In this document: piece after piece, positions 35,957 to 41,619 of the stretch
Layout: every line of letters starts with the position of its first letter
Position numbering within the stretch: position 1 is the first letter of the stretch
Source of the DNA: Clostridiales bacterium
GTDB taxonomy: Bacteria; Bacillota; Clostridia; Lachnospirales; Lachnospiraceae
Direction of reading: 5' to 3'
DNA length: 41,619 nt
Assembly (NCBI GenBank): GCA_012523775.1
Contig: JAAYTK010000095.1
Location: 1-41,619 of the forward strand
The notes under the pieces: generated by a model
What the model saw: only the letters and a program-made list of their open reading frames with translations
What the model was told of the DNA's origin: nothing
Databases searched by the model: none
Position numbers and translations under genes: made by a program

Positions 35957-37348
35957 ATGTCTGAAGTAAATAAGGATAATAAGAAATTTGAATTTATAAA
36001 AGAGCAGGTAGTACCCAAGAAGCGTAAGAAATTCAGGAAATGGTTTATACCCTTTATTATGACCATATTTATGGCAATAGTATTCGGGTTGGTTGCTGCG
36101 CTTACCTTCTGTATAGCAGAACCAAGTTTATTTAGGCTGCTCCATAAAGATGAACACAATCCCTTTACCTTACCAACCCCCACACCAGTTGGCTCAGGGA
36201 ATGAGAATAATGATAGTATTGATGACGATTCTGAGGACAATTTTGATGATGATCCTTTACCTACTATCCATCCGGACGAACAGAAGCCTGACGTACAGGA
36301 TACAAATGATTCAAACGGACAAATAGATGATCAGGTTGATTCCAATCCTGTAATAATTCCTACAAAGGATGCGGATATCGAGGATTATATTGCTATTTAT
36401 AAAGATATTAAGAAGCTTTTCGAGGAGACAAGCAAGTCTATTTTAACCGTATCAAGTATAATTGACGGCAAGGATTGGTTTGGCAATCCAATTGAAAGAA
36501 GAATATATTCAACCGGTGTTGTAATCGAAAATGATGGCACCAACCTTATGCTGTTAGTCAGTCTGGATAGGGTTAAGGATGCCAGCAGTATAATGATTGA
36601 GATAAATGATACAACATTTGCTAATGCCGTTCTTCATGATTATGAAAGTGAGCTGAATATTGCAATTATTTCAGTGAGTCTTATTGATATTCCACCTAAG
36701 TTTTTACGTAATATTAATGTCGCAAATATAGGAGAATCATATACCCTTGCAGTCGGGAGTCCCATTATTGCAATGGGGAGTCCTAATGGATATCCCGAAT
36801 CTATAGATATGGGTATTGTCACGAGCAAAGGCAGTGTGGTTAGTATAACCGATTATGAACTGGATTTATTTAATACCAATATGGTATTCAATGATGAAAG
36901 TGACGGAATACTTATAAATTATAATGGGGAAATCGTAGGACTCATAACCCGAACCTTAAAGAAGGAGCTTAATAAGGAGCTTAGTACGGTATTGGGTATA
37001 AGCAAGATAAAATCATATATTAACAGAATGATAAATAAAAAGCCCAGAATATACTGTGGTATAATTGCTGAGAACTTACCTCAAACAGTTATGTCCGGTT
37101 ATAATGTTACGAGTGGAGTCTATGTGTATGAGGTAAAGAGAGATTCTCCGGCATTTAATTCAGGGCTAATGAGCGGTGATATTATTCTGAATGTAGAGGA
37201 TAGAATAATATCAAATATGAGTAATTTCTATAATGCCATATCGGAGTATGAACCCGGTTCCCAAGTTACTTTAAATATTAAGAGGACAACCGGTACATCA
37301 GATAAGGAAATGGAGATAAAGGTTGTATTAGAAGAAAAAAAGCAATAA
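35957..37348 (+). CDS. HtrA-like PDZ protein with degenerate trypsin-like domain
   Basis: 463-residue, DegP/HtrA-like architecture: cytoplasmic basic N-terminus, TM at about 29-52, an acidic Pro/Asp-rich linker (to about 140), trypsin-like core (about 150-350) and a PDZ domain (about 375-460, SGVYVYEVKRDSPAFNSGLMSGDII). The catalytic triad appears lost. The His motif TNxHVV is LVSLDRV (about 200-206), the Asp of DLAV is N234 in ELNIAII, and GNSGG is NDESDG with S315 retained. It is thus likely a scaffold or sensor rather than a protease. Its AAG-GAGAA site precedes the ATG. Confidence 0.8.
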   Translation: MSEVNKDNKKFEFIKEQVVPKKRKKFRKWFIPFIMTIFMAIVFGLVAALTFCIAEPSLFRLLHKDEHNPFTLPTPTPVGSGNENNDSIDDDSEDNFDDDPLPTIHPDEQKPDVQDTNDSNGQIDDQVDSNPVIIPTKDADIEDYIAIYKDIKKLFEETSKSILTVSSIIDGKDWFGNPIERRIYSTGVVIENDGTNLMLLVSLDRVKDASSIMIEINDTTFANAVLHDYESELNIAIISVSLIDIPPKFLRNINVANIGESYTLAVGSPIIAMGSPNGYPESIDMGIVTSKGSVVSITDYELDLFNTNMVFNDESDGILINYNGEIVGLITRTLKKELNKELSTVLGISKIKSYINRMINKKPRIYCGIIAENLPQTVMSGYNVTSGVYVYEVKRDSPAFNSGLMSGDIILNVEDRIISNMSNFYNAISEYEPGSQVTLNIKRTTGTSDKEMEIKVVLEEKKQ

Positions 37349-37361
37349 GAATTTATTGACG

Positions 37362-37390
37362 GTGGCTGTTTATACAGCCACTTTATTATA
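37362..37390 (+). terminator. Rho-independent terminator after the htrA-like gene
   Basis: Perfect 8-base stem GTGGCTGT (37362-37369) / ACAGCCAC (37374-37381), loop TTAT, then TTTATTATATT. Confidence 0.75.
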
Positions 37391-37489
37391 TTATTTAATA
37401 TAATAAAACATTTCACTTTATATATAATTTATGATAGGGTATAATATGAAGGCAATTAATGAATGCAAATTAGAAAGGTTTAGGTAAAA

Positions 37490-38443
37490 ATGAGGTATAT
37501 CCGGGATTTAAGAGAAGGAGACATAATTAAGAATGAAATTTATCTTTGTAAATCAAAGCAGGTTCTGACCGGAAAGAGCAGTAAGGATTATGTATCTTTG
37601 CTATTGCAGGATAAAACGGGAACAATCGATGCAAAAATATGGAATTTTAACAGCGAGATAGAGCAATATGAAGCAATGGATTTCGTACATATTGATGCGA
37701 AGGTTACCAGCTTTCAGGATGCACTTCAGTTAAATATTAGCAAGATATACAAAGCAAGAGAAGGGGAATATTATCCGGAGGATTTTTTCCCAAAGACCGA
37801 CAAAGACATTGATGAGATGTATCAAAGGATAAAAAAATACATCGGAAGCATCAAGGATATAAATCTTAGATTTCTTGTAGAGGAATTCTTTATTAAGGAT
37901 ACGGAATTCATTAAGAAATTCAAGGAGCATTCCGCAGCAAAAAGCGTACACCATAGCTTTATGGGAGGCTTGCTTGAGCATACACTTAGCGTTGTTAATC
38001 TGTGCCATTACTATGCTGAAAATTATCCAATAATAAACGGAGATTTACTGATTTGTGCCGCCTTACTTCATGATATCGGAAAAATGGATGAGTTGTCTCC
38101 GTTTCCCAGAAATGACTATACTGACGAAGGACAGCTGTTGGGACATATATTTATAGGAGCTAATAAGGTTGCGGAAAAGATAAAAAACATGATTAATTTC
38201 CCGGAGAAACTTGCCGGGGAGCTTATACATTGTATACTGGCTCATCATGGAGAACTGGAATACGGTTCACCTAAGAAACCTGCTACAATCGAAGCCATGG
38301 CACTTCATTTTGCTGATAATACAGATGCCAAGCTTCAGACGATGACTGAACTCTTATGCTCATGTGATTCTAAGGTGGAGTGGATGGGTTATCAGCGGTT
38401 ATTCGAGTCTAATATTATGAGAAGCACAAAGGGAATAGAATAA
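37490..38443 (+). CDS. yhaM: 3'-5' exoribonuclease YhaM-type (OB + HD domains)
   Basis: RNA/DNA 3'-5' exonuclease family seen in Firmicutes. N-terminal OB-fold (about 1-95, YIRDLREGDIIKNEIYLC and LLLQDKTGTIDAKIWNF) and an HD domain with ALLHDIGK containing H194 and D195, preceded by HHSFMGGLLEHTLSVV and followed by HHGELEYGSPKKPATIEA. 317 residues, near the usual 314. ATG follows AGAAAGG. Stand-alone transcription from the upstream terminator is likely; rlmD follows after 31 bases. Confidence 0.92.
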   Translation: MRYIRDLREGDIIKNEIYLCKSKQVLTGKSSKDYVSLLLQDKTGTIDAKIWNFNSEIEQYEAMDFVHIDAKVTSFQDALQLNISKIYKAREGEYYPEDFFPKTDKDIDEMYQRIKKYIGSIKDINLRFLVEEFFIKDTEFIKKFKEHSAAKSVHHSFMGGLLEHTLSVVNLCHYYAENYPIINGDLLICAALLHDIGKMDELSPFPRNDYTDEGQLLGHIFIGANKVAEKIKNMINFPEKLAGELIHCILAHHGELEYGSPKKPATIEAMALHFADNTDAKLQTMTELLCSCDSKVEWMGYQRLFESNIMRSTKGIE

Positions 38444-38474
38444 AGAATAAAATTCATTCATATAGAAGGCAGTT

Positions 38475-39848
38475 ATGAATATGGTTAAGAAAAATGATCA
38501 GATAGTTATAGAAATTGAAGATATTGGAACGAACGGAGAGGGTATAGGCAAATATAAGGGGTATACCCTCTTTGTAAATAACACAATTATCGGTGATAAG
38601 GCTTTGGTTAAGGTAATGAAGGCAGGGAAAAGCTACGGATATGCCAGACTTGTAGAGATTATCCGACCTTCAGAGAATCGTGTTATACCAAGATGTCCGA
38701 TTGCAGACAAATGTGGCGGATGCCAGATAATGCATATGGATTATTCAAAGCAGCTTGTGTATAAGGAGGACAAGGTTAGAAACTGCCTCGAAAGAATCGG
38801 AGGGTTTTCTAATATACCCATAGAAACTATCTGTGGGATGGACGAGCCATATTATTATCGTAATAAAAGCCAGTACCCTGTGGGACGTAATAAAGAGGGT
38901 AATGTTATTATCGGATTCTATGCAGGAAGAACTCACTCGATTATTGATACAGAACACTGCTATATTGGTGCTGAGATAAACACACCGATTATTAAATTTA
39001 TGCGTTCATTTATAGAGGATTACAATATTGAGCCCTATAATGAGGAGCAGCATACAGGGCTTCTTCGCCATATCCTTATCAGAGTTGGATACACAACGGG
39101 AGAGGTGATGGTATGTCTTGTAATAAACGGCAAGGATATACCTCATAAGAAGGAGCTTATAGAAGGACTCATAAGCATTTCAGGTATGAAGAGCATATGT
39201 CTTAATATTAATACTTCAAAGACCAATGTTATTCTGGGTGATAGAATCGTAGCACTCTGGGGAGAGCCGTATATAACAGATTATATCGGTTCTATTAAAT
39301 ATCAAATATCACCGTTATCCTTCTTTCAGGTTAATCCGATTCAGACCGAAAAGCTATATAATATAGCCCTGGAATTCGCTGATCTTCATGGAAATGAGAT
39401 TGTATGGGATTTATATTGCGGAATCGGGACCATATCTTTATTCTTGGCGCAGAAGGCCAAACAGGTTTATGGTGTCGAGATTATACCACAAGCCATCGAG
39501 GATGCGAAGACGAATGCCCAACTAAATGGGATTGAAAATGTAGAATTCTATGTTGGAGCAGCTGAGGAGATACTTCCTAAAAAGCACGCAGAAGAAAATA
39601 TCCGGGCAGACGTAATCGTTGTGGATCCGCCAAGAAAGGGCTGTGATAAGAGCTTACTGGACACCATTTTATCCATAGAACCAAAACGAATAGTCTATGT
39701 CTCCTGTGATCCTGCTACTTTAGCAAGAGATTTAAAGTATCTATGCGAAAGCATGTATGAGATAAAGAGGGTCAAACCTGTGGATCAGTTCGGACATAGT
39801 GTGCATGTGGAGACGGTTTGCTTGCTCTCGCGTAAAGCCCCAGTTTAA
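38475..39848 (+). CDS. rlmD: 23S rRNA (uracil-5-)-methyltransferase RlmD/RumA
   Basis: Makes m5U1939 in 23S rRNA using SAM. An N-terminal TRAM domain (IEIEDIGTNGEGIGKYKG), Fe-S ligands C74, C80 and C83 in RCPIADKCGGC, the SAM-binding WDLYCGIGTISLFLA, and the catalytic Cys411 in YVSCDPATLARDL. 457 residues. The C-terminal peptide HVETVCLLSRKAPV is encoded by a sequence that is repeated 1.67 kb downstream; this 3' end is a known integration target for mobile elements (see findings). ATG follows AAGG. Confidence 0.95.
   Translation: MNMVKKNDQIVIEIEDIGTNGEGIGKYKGYTLFVNNTIIGDKALVKVMKAGKSYGYARLVEIIRPSENRVIPRCPIADKCGGCQIMHMDYSKQLVYKEDKVRNCLERIGGFSNIPIETICGMDEPYYYRNKSQYPVGRNKEGNVIIGFYAGRTHSIIDTEHCYIGAEINTPIIKFMRSFIEDYNIEPYNEEQHTGLLRHILIRVGYTTGEVMVCLVINGKDIPHKKELIEGLISISGMKSICLNINTSKTNVILGDRIVALWGEPYITDYIGSIKYQISPLSFFQVNPIQTEKLYNIALEFADLHGNEIVWDLYCGIGTISLFLAQKAKQVYGVEIIPQAIEDAKTNAQLNGIENVEFYVGAAEEILPKKHAEENIRADVIVVDPPRKGCDKSLLDTILSIEPKRIVYVSCDPATLARDLKYLCESMYEIKRVKPVDQFGHSVHVETVCLLSRKAPV
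39802..39817. repeat. Left att-like direct repeat in the rlmD 3' end
   Basis: TGCATGTGGAGACGGT, coding for part of HVETV in RlmD. A 15-of-16 match occurs at 41474-41489. Together they bracket the AT-rich accessory gene. Confidence 0.5.
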
Positions 39849-40041
39849 GCGGGTTTCCGTGCTTATTTAGAAAATATATATCTGTGTTTTTAGTAGGAAA
39901 AAATGTATATAAAACTCCGATTTTCAAGAAGGGGTAAAATTTCGTAGCCACCTAAGACGTGCGCCGGAATAGTTTGAGCTTACAGACGTGTGCGAATAAT
40001 ATAAAATAATAGACGATTGTTCAAGGAAGGAAGTTAAGAAT

Positions 40042-41283
40042 ATGAAGAAAAAAATATATCAGATCGCAAGTAAATATGTTAATGCGGATAGAATAAAAAT
40101 TATGATTTTATTTATTCCATTAATGACAATCATTATTAATGAGATAAGAGAACGAAGGTTTGTGTTAAAAGATTTTTACGATACATCGATTCTTATTTCT
40201 TTTTTGATTGTATTTATATGCGAGAGTATTGCTAATCTTATATTGGGAATAATAAGAAAAAATACAGAAGATGATGTAAAACTAGAGACAAATTATAAAT
40301 TATTAGCCAATAAGTATGAAGTTGAAAAACGTAATATGATTACATTTAAAAATAAGCAGCAAGAGCTTGTATATATTCCTGTAGTTTCTTTAATTCAACG
40401 AAAAATAAAAGATGATTTTTTTGATATTGAGATTGAATTAGACAAAAATAGGACTGTATATAATTTGCCTAAACAGATTGCAGATAATTCTAGCAATATT
40501 TTTAATGCTCATTCCAATTCTGTAGTTTATAACAACAAAAATATTCGTCTTAATGATTTTGTTTGTGATAAAAAAATAAAACTAATATATGGATATACTA
40601 CTTATTATGATTCGTTATTGACTAATCGTGCTATGGACTATCAATTCAATCAAGGAAGGTCTGTTAGAGAAATTTATGAACCAGGACCATTTTTGTCAAA
40701 ACTGTCTGAATCGAAACTTTCTAATCACTTAGGGTTTAACGGCTTTGTAGAATTAGCTGATGGAAATATTGTTTTTGTAAAAAGGGGAAATGAGTTATCT
40801 GTGGCTAAAGGAATGTGGCAGCAAAGCGTTGGGGCCTCTCTAAAAACTAAATATTGCCTAAATGATAAATATGAATTGACAAAGGAGGGTATTTCGAAAG
40901 CAATATGTTTAGAAATTAGTTATGAATTGAAACTCGATTTGTCAGATGAAAAAGATAATTTTGAAAATACAATATTTGCTTTTTATCGTGATCTTGTAGA
41001 AGGGGGTAAACCACAGTTTCTTTTTTATTATAAAACAGAAAATTATAATAAAGAGCAGTTTATAGAAAATTTTGAAAGAGTGATGAGTTCAAAAGAGCAG
41101 AAAAGACAGAATCGAAAAAAACAAATAATTGATGGGAAAAAATTTGCTTTCTTTACAATAGATAAATTGAAGCAATGTGAATTTAGTGAAAATTATATGC
41201 TTACCCCAAATGGTGTGAAGTATAGAATGATGCCATCTTCTATTGCTTCAATAATTATGCTTATCAATAATATAGAAAAGTAA
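40042..41283 (+). CDS. Two-TM, coiled-coil protein with divergent Nudix-like domain (accessory gene)
   Basis: 413 residues with visibly higher AT content and different codon use from its neighbours. Two TM helices (about 19-34 and 49-71), then a charged coiled coil (about 72-108), then a soluble domain. At 227-300 the pattern LSNHLGFNGFVELADGNIVF followed by VKRGNELSVAKGMWQQSVGAS resembles Nudix proteins, and KAICLEISYELKL aligns with the Nudix helix REUxEE. The key R and one of the Glu are replaced (L290, Y294) while E291 and E295 remain. It may be a membrane-bound nucleotide sensor or effector; no family is firmly identified. RBS AAGGAAGG. Isolated between two rlmD-type 3' ends. Confidence 0.7.
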   Translation: MKKKIYQIASKYVNADRIKIMILFIPLMTIIINEIRERRFVLKDFYDTSILISFLIVFICESIANLILGIIRKNTEDDVKLETNYKLLANKYEVEKRNMITFKNKQQELVYIPVVSLIQRKIKDDFFDIEIELDKNRTVYNLPKQIADNSSNIFNAHSNSVVYNNKNIRLNDFVCDKKIKLIYGYTTYYDSLLTNRAMDYQFNQGRSVREIYEPGPFLSKLSESKLSNHLGFNGFVELADGNIVFVKRGNELSVAKGMWQQSVGASLKTKYCLNDKYELTKEGISKAICLEISYELKLDLSDEKDNFENTIFAFYRDLVEGGKPQFLFYYKTENYNKEQFIENFERVMSSKEQKRQNRKKQIIDGKKFAFFTIDKLKQCEFSENYMLTPNGVKYRMMPSSIASIIMLINNIEK

Positions 41284-41325
41284 CTAATTCTTTTGAGAAA
41301 TTTACTGGTTTACGGGCTGTGCTTT

Positions 41326-41409
41326 GAGTAGTAAGTGTAGTTATTGTGCCGCTTATTCGGAAAATGTTATCGCATACAGAAAGGATAGATACTGCCAACT
41401 TACTACTCT
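41326..41409. repeat. Inverted repeat behind the accessory gene
   Basis: GAGTAGTAA (41326-41334) and TTACTACTC (41401-41409) are perfect 9-base arms about 66 bases apart, in the non-coding stretch between the accessory gene and the orphan rlmD tail. No T-run, so not an obvious terminator. Confidence 0.4.
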
Positions 41410-41463
41410 GTAAATAAGGGGGATAATAATTCAAAACCGTGTGCGCGAATGTTAATGCGAACT

Positions 41464-41523
41464 AAAGTTTCAATGCACGTGGAGACGGTAGTATTGATAA
41501 CAAGGGTGAACACTAAAGGCTAA
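41464..41523 (+). pseudogene. Orphan 3' end of an rlmD-type methyltransferase gene
   Basis: In frame to a stop at 41521-41523 this encodes KVSMHVETVVLITRVNTKG, the classical C-terminus of RlmD/RumA proteins (compare SVHVETVCLLSRK in the intact gene). There is no methyltransferase domain upstream, so it is a detached 3' fragment. It differs from the intact rlmD tail in sequence, so it is not a simple tandem duplication of it. It is consistent with the displaced original end, or element-borne end, left by an integration event. Confidence 0.6.
41474..41489. repeat. Right att-like direct repeat
   Basis: TGCACGTGGAGACGGT, matching the left copy at 39802-39817 except for one base. Confidence 0.5.
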
Positions 41524-41540: not shown

Positions 41541-41619
41541 ATGACAGAATTAAAATACGATTATGCAAAAAAGTCAGATATTTCAGAATTGGTTAGATTA
41601 CGAATTGCGTATATCAAAA
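41541..41619 (+). CDS. GNAT-family N-acetyltransferase, partial at window edge
   Basis: Only the first 26 codons are visible: ATG after AAGGAGGATGAATTT, then MTELKYDYAKKSDISE and LVRLRIAYIK. The DISELVRLRIAYI stretch is typical of the first strand and helix of GNAT acetyltransferases. The acetyl-CoA site is beyond the window, so substrate and intactness are unknown. It follows the orphan rlmD tail by 17 bases and belongs to the same accessory area. Confidence 0.6.
   Translation, partial: MTELKYDYAKKSDISELVRLRIAYIK

Follow-up and report, generated by a model that had tools for sequence, protein, structure and literature searches.

The window analysed here is the whole stretch of 41,619 nucleotides of contig JAAYTK010000095.1 (Lachnospiraceae assembly GCA_012523775.1). 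Near its right end the 23S rRNA methyltransferase gene rlmD is followed by a short segment that lies between two copies of a 16-base sequence, hereafter called the core. The features of the locus are as follows.

38475-39848, forward strand: rlmD, 23S rRNA uracil-5-methyltransferase, 457 aa, integration target (TIGR00479, E 7.7e-148; orthologues in the genus)
39802-39817, forward strand: core copy 1, left junction, inside the rlmD 3' end (286 cores compared for conservation edge and linkage, 21 orthologues for the drop in identity)
39818-40041, forward strand: left end of the inserted segment, non-coding except for the final rlmD codons
40042-41283, forward strand: cargo gene, 413 aa, 27.1% GC, hydrophobic N-terminus by eye
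41441-41473, forward strand: right-end motif, common to a prophage end (30 of 33 bases)
41474-41489, forward strand: core copy 2, right junction, in a detached rlmD-type tail, non-coding
41541-41619, forward strand: beginning of the following gene, truncated at the contig end, 26 aa, GNAT-like by eye only

Both core copies match TGCAYGTGGAGACGGT exactly and differ from each other at one base, and they lie where the initial annotation had placed a 16-base repeat in the rlmD 3' end and its copy with one mismatch. When up to three mismatches are allowed, 0.18 matches are expected in the window and only 2 of 100 shuffles gave two, so the exact pair is not due to chance. Copy 2 is placed between the 413-aa ORF (stop at 41283) and the frame starting at 41541, outside any listed ORF and apart from the rlmD gene, which agrees with its earlier description as a detached rlmD-type tail; the conserved tail sequence that follows it runs to about 41510. 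The two cores are spaced by 1,672 bp, and the 413-aa ORF is the sole ORF of at least 60 aa between them. Its translation has no recombinase-family match, as expected from the earlier remark that no integrase is visible, and neither relaxase nor conjugation genes were found within the 1.67-kb segment. The 26-aa gene start at 41541 has no family match, and 130 bp separate the second core from the contig end at 41619. A third copy of the repeat, proposed earlier as a check, was looked for in the same genome; the only candidate (contig C27) has two mismatches, lies within an unrelated ORF and was rejected. This genome also holds a second rlmD-type paralogue (G000:C101:1-1376, L332) whose tail bears a core-like sequence, with the contig ending about 110 bp later.

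The rlmD orthologues of the genus were gathered by protein search, independently of the repeat; 31 of 34 genomes matched, and loci were obtained for 30 of them, including the window's own. Among the 29 loci of relatives, seven stop short of the core and one (G030) stops with it, which left 21 for comparison with the window. Identity was 69.5% on average (range 59-78%) over the 150 nt before the core, 86% over the first 14 core bases, and 33.7% on average (range 13-50%) over the 30 nt after these. The core within rlmD encodes a conserved HVET peptide, behind which the sequence is variable among relatives and similar in five of them (G027, G003, G009, G015, G011); the tails are exchanged at the core among orthologues. 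In three of the seven loci short of the core (G013, G014, G007) the contig breaks at the core itself, as would be expected from a core that is repeated there. The current C-terminus of the window's rlmD is HVETVCLLSRKAPV, and the tail right of copy 2 would read HVETVVLITRVNTKG if joined to rlmD. Since CLL follows the core in some relatives (G001, G015), and post-core identity reaches 0.50 in G016, either of the two tails may be the older; the 413-aa segment would be the latest arrival only if rlmD itself is where new units enter. A PDZ-protease-like gene, an HD/OB-domain-like gene and rlmD follow one another in the same order, as judged by eye, in the window (35957-39848) and in G373 (L455, 9531-13239); the upstream side of rlmD is therefore conserved whereas its downstream side is not.

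A core pattern matched 47 of the 392 genomes of the order, with none for the reversed control, and was found in at least 117 stretches of genome_contigs and in 65 of viral_contigs. A first scan of the genus with a looser pattern had matched 32 of 34 genomes; as the reversed control likewise gave many matches, the results were used as leads only. For the 286 unique cores, conservation begins at the CA (position -1, 0.06 bit; C, 2.00 bits; A, 1.97 bits); as these cores were gathered by patterns over positions 1-24, conservation inside this span is partly imposed, while the left edge and the positions beyond 24 are free of this constraint. Some positions to the left are conserved as well (-5, 0.90 bit), because many of the rows are rlmD genes. 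Core positions 3 and 6 are linked (no shuffle out of 500 reached the value), position 3 is unlinked to the base on its left (124/500), and weak associations were seen between position 3 and base -2 (44/500) and between position 6 and base -3 (14/500). Given this linkage and the independence of position 3 from its left neighbour, an exchange between positions 3 and 6 is not favoured; strand exchange probably occurs at the CA or just left of it, which in core copy 1 would be the CA at 39804-39805. On the left side of the core, recurrent types were noticed, such as agacatcaat...ctcgagc and ...tcaagg (L015, L046, L047 and others).

An IMG/VR contig is 90.9% identical to the 33 bp that precede copy 2, and the similarity reaches the core itself. 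Two serine recombinase genes (422 and 468 aa) lie on this prophage contig, together with lysin- and holin-like genes (by eye); accessory genes stand between the two recombinases and the contig end, and this end abuts an rlmD-type core. As an exact pattern, the right-end motif was found only in that contig among viral_contigs, and with up to three mismatches it was found in the window's own genome alone among the 34 of the genus. The bases right of copy 2 are similar to many other rlmD tails, and both cores of the window read as site-specific junctions. No strong match to the left end (39818-40041) was found elsewhere; the far end of the prophage contig, tried as a partner for it, showed no match beyond 16 bp and was rejected.

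The cargo gene, described earlier as AT-rich and unlike its neighbours, indeed ranks lowest in GC content (27.1%, against a mean of 38.1%) among the 31 ORFs of 150 aa or more in the window. It had no match in Pfam, NCBIfam, PADLOC, the phage collection or IMG/VR, and its single-sequence structure model (mean pLDDT 32.7) was unusable, so no domain is claimed. The gene is not a common feature of close relatives, being found in 1 of 61 genomes, that of the window; a four-row profile extended the family to 6 of 392 genomes in 6 genera, and homologues at 33-40% identity were found in four records of the plasmid collection. In the one of these records that was examined, from Lachnospira eligens, an annotated Abi protein lies about 3 kb from the homologue, and among the five other genome loci PP2C-like ORFs were seen by eye near two and an Abi-like ORF near one. 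A defence role of the cargo would be a guess from this gene company. No core was found in the flanks examined at these five loci, save two weak look-alikes in L468. Altogether, the identity drop at the core, the right end shared with a prophage, the odd base composition and the patchy distribution of the cargo support a site-specific insertion, and to this extent the initial annotation, which suggested an island, minimal or decayed, or else the left part of a larger element, is upheld. The window thus holds a real site-specific insertion at a known hotspot, in which the segment is cargo-only and, taken alone, modest.

In other genomes, 31 non-redundant same-strand core-to-core intervals of 0.5-4.9 kb were collected (the window's included), mostly with one or two genes in the direction of rlmD: 47 ORFs run along the core direction and 5 against it (p 1.3e-9; ORFs called mechanically from ATG, at least 90 aa, one opposed ORF, in L262, overlapping the place where the recombinase search finds a recombinase). 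Runs of three or four cores, at rlmD or away from it, occur at four loci and also in L478, an array that was found later and of which only the last interval (as L095) is among the 31. One cassette, consisting of an 85-aa ORF, a 308-aa recombinase and a metallophosphatase, occurs in two places with 99.5% identity over 2,651 bp, directly at an rlmD-type gene in Alkalithermobacter thermoalcaliphilus (L184) and beside another kind of left flank on a viral contig (L250); the alignment extends from the first base of one core to 25 bases into the other. L138 has the same right end as this cassette, with a different sequence after the core. Recombinase-free cassettes were also observed: a GNAT gene with the same right end is accompanied by a recombinase in L281 and lacks it in L077 (795 bp at 97%). 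The array of G123 (L478) starts with an rlmD-type gene (tRNA_U5-meth_tr, TRAM), followed on one strand by cores at 1960, 3564, 6070 and 7366, the first being rlmD's own tail and the last three bearing an end of TAGCCTAA or TAGTCTAA type. Its three cassettes encode proteins of 142 and 82 aa, DarT and a macrodomain protein (PF14487, PF01661), and a protein of 158 aa; none of the listed L478 ORFs (80 aa or longer) matched the recombinase profile, and the short recombinase described below was not found in the G123 genome at the cut used.

Genes carried by such units or lying next to them include those for GNAT and CAAX-protease proteins, a HATPase protein and an nSTAND calcineurin-like protein; in L455 a C5 methyltransferase stands behind the recombinase at the rlmD gene, a second core being absent within 3.6 kb. 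A core preceded by the exact TAGCCTAA-type end is rare, being found in 5 of 392 genomes; in one such case, G037:C63 (L479), neither that core nor a further one reached the core pattern. Core-to-core intervals behind rlmD-type genes were also seen outside Firmicutes, in Gardnerella piotii and Arcanobacterium records (L171 3850-6658, L130 1094-2543), and in G006 (L074 14523-18494) several nucleotidyltransferase-like genes, resistance-type by eye only, lie upstream of one core. The hotspot itself is known; the less expected part is the small core-bounded units found elsewhere, some of which stand in tandem.

The recombinase of these cassettes belongs to a short family (about 308 aa). Two members scanned matched PF00239 and PF07508 with no zinc-ribbon match, and the match to the 545-residue YokA ends at residue 307 of the YokA chain, so the C-terminal part is absent; the residues of the YCRVS/YARVS and SRFGRD motifs are conserved in seven members, and one ORF of the family has 441 aa in frame (L160). 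For the 30 short members a core was found upstream in 23/25, downstream in 17/23 and on both sides in 12/18, versus 1/170, 18/132 and 1/111 respectively for 194 long serine recombinases (denominators being members for which a core was found or the flank was 1.2 kb or longer); this link is biased, because the core pattern supplied some of the loci, which also seeded the profile. A search by recombinase similarity gave 21 places (12 + 9, each at least 280 bits, two on one contig; the cut was fixed once the gap to the long recombinases was known), of which 19 lie within 3.6 kb of one or more cores, L355 and G205 (L462) being the two without. Only an upstream core was found, despite downstream DNA, in G255, G373, G086 (which also has a look-alike with three mismatches) and L347, and only a downstream core in L345. 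The short recombinase is present in 9 of the 13 intervals with a TAGCCTAA-like end versus 0 of the 18 others (p 3.5e-5), eight of the nine coming from the interval count and one (L262) from the recombinase search. The window's right end is of TTTCAATG type and not of the TAGCCTAA type of these cassettes; neither a TAGCCTAA end plus core nor, at the cut used for this family's profile, the short recombinase was found in its genome.

We consider that the window segment may be a recombinase-free cargo cassette residing in rlmD and moved in trans by a serine recombinase, a reading to which we give about an even chance (probability near 0.5). A cassette of 1,672 bp would have entered the rlmD 3' end through conservative site-specific recombination by a serine recombinase acting in trans and supplied by an rlmD-targeting phage or ICE that has this right end too. 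With the exchange at the CA of CAYGTKGAG, the tail brought by the cassette would be joined to the rlmD body; rlmD would stay open and gain a new C-terminus while its former tail would be moved to the far side; there it would now precede the next, truncated gene, which is probably an older insertion. The cargo may be co-transcribed with rlmD. The cassettes of other genomes bear on the window by analogy, because its right end is of a class other than that of the ~308-aa recombinase, and the lack of a recombinase in the segment, a left end without strong match and other cargo loci without core all speak against the cassette.

Nearly as likely as a cargo-only cassette is the deleted remnant of a phage or ICE: a larger element integrated in rlmD would have lost its interior and its recombinase, leaving two ends and one accessory gene, so that the segment would have arrived by the same site-specific event and would no longer be its own unit of movement. 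A prophage that carries two serine recombinases has this right end as well, with accessory genes near it, and decayed elements in accretion are reported for streptococci (PMC5357655), but no trace of phage or recombinase genes is left in the 1.67 kb and recombinase-free cassettes of similar size recur elsewhere. It is rather improbable that core 2 is internal to a longer element running past the contig end with its own recombinase; the contig does stop 130 bp after core 2, and tandem arrays with three or four cores exist, but core 2 bears on its left the full end motif of a known element type, which argues for a boundary. There is very little chance that the 16-mer recurs by accident or through conserved codons, i.e. 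the HVETV codon usage considered in the initial annotation, since the core does encode HVET in rlmD but copy 2 is outside rlmD, a pair is improbable by chance, and the prophage end shared on the left of copy 2 largely contradicts it.

The cassette favoured here resembles several known systems. CIMEs and pseudo-SCC elements are att-bounded segments without their own recombinase, located at a gene end in tandem with others, and SCC elements use serine recombinases and target another rRNA methyltransferase gene, rlmH. Like a CIME, the window segment is flanked by att sites on both sides and lacks recombination and transfer genes; CIMEs and pseudo-SCC differ in target gene or recombinase type. A CIME is moved by a related element lying next to it, and such mobilisation in trans is putative for the window segment. 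Integrons are the means by which many Gram-negative bacteria collect single genes, and their cassettes, like the rlmD arrays, are small, mostly co-directed genes in rows with one fixed entry site, many without a recombinase; integrons rely on the tyrosine integrase IntI and on attC sites, whereas the rlmD arrays use serine recombinase sites derived from the rlmD tail and some of their cassettes carry their own recombinase, and the likeness is one of function only. As in the ~308-aa-recombinase cassettes, an rlmD-tail core is present on both sides of the window segment.

In streptococci, serine-integrase ICEs inserting in rumA with exchange of its C-terminus are described in PMC4701971, and rumA IMEs, accretion and decayed elements in accretion in PMC5357655. 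The window segment, an insertion in the rlmD 3' end with direct repeats, shares with these elements (PMC4701971, PMC5357655) the target gene end, short direct repeats and the C-terminus exchange; they have a single serine integrase, whereas the segment is 1.67 kb long with one gene and no integrase, relaxase or conjugation gene. For Dehalobacter, PMC11578063 describes a nested recombinase island at rumA in which, according to its authors, the inner elements could not be delimited; mobile elements are piled beside the same gene there as in the rlmD-tail loci, but the units of the latter are delimited by cores. Five long serine recombinase ORFs of 575-600 aa (L294, L354, L275, L242, L119) end 5 bases into a core, the last bases of the integrase gene thus lying within the attachment site, and such an overlap at attR is reported for streptococcal rumA ICEs in PMC4701971 and PMC5357655. 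No description of a short recombinase with single-gene cassettes was found in the open-access library searched, which is weak evidence of absence.

More broadly, and with odds somewhat under even, we tentatively propose an integron-like system in Firmicutes, in which the rlmD 3' end would serve as entry site and probably as promoter, and a ~308-aa recombinase without zinc-ribbon would move its own cassettes and recombinase-free ones in trans. Units would stand in tandem, part of them with defence cargo, a group II intron would use the same sites, and the window unit would follow the same logic with another end class. If the cassette reading is true, Firmicutes would collect genes in a manner comparable to integrons by a different mechanism, the housekeeping gene being kept open by each new tail; the rlmD-tail core would be a simple marker for delimiting small elements in nested islands, and the compact recombinase would be one to test.

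At 13 unique cores (e.g. L075 9517, L074 14356 and L076, the rlmD of G006) a group II intron interrupts the rlmD-type tail, in all 13 at position +25 relative to the core start. Searches of five of these loci against Rfam gave RF02003 in all five and RF00029 in four. The intron of the rlmD tails recalls the group IIC-attC introns of integrons.
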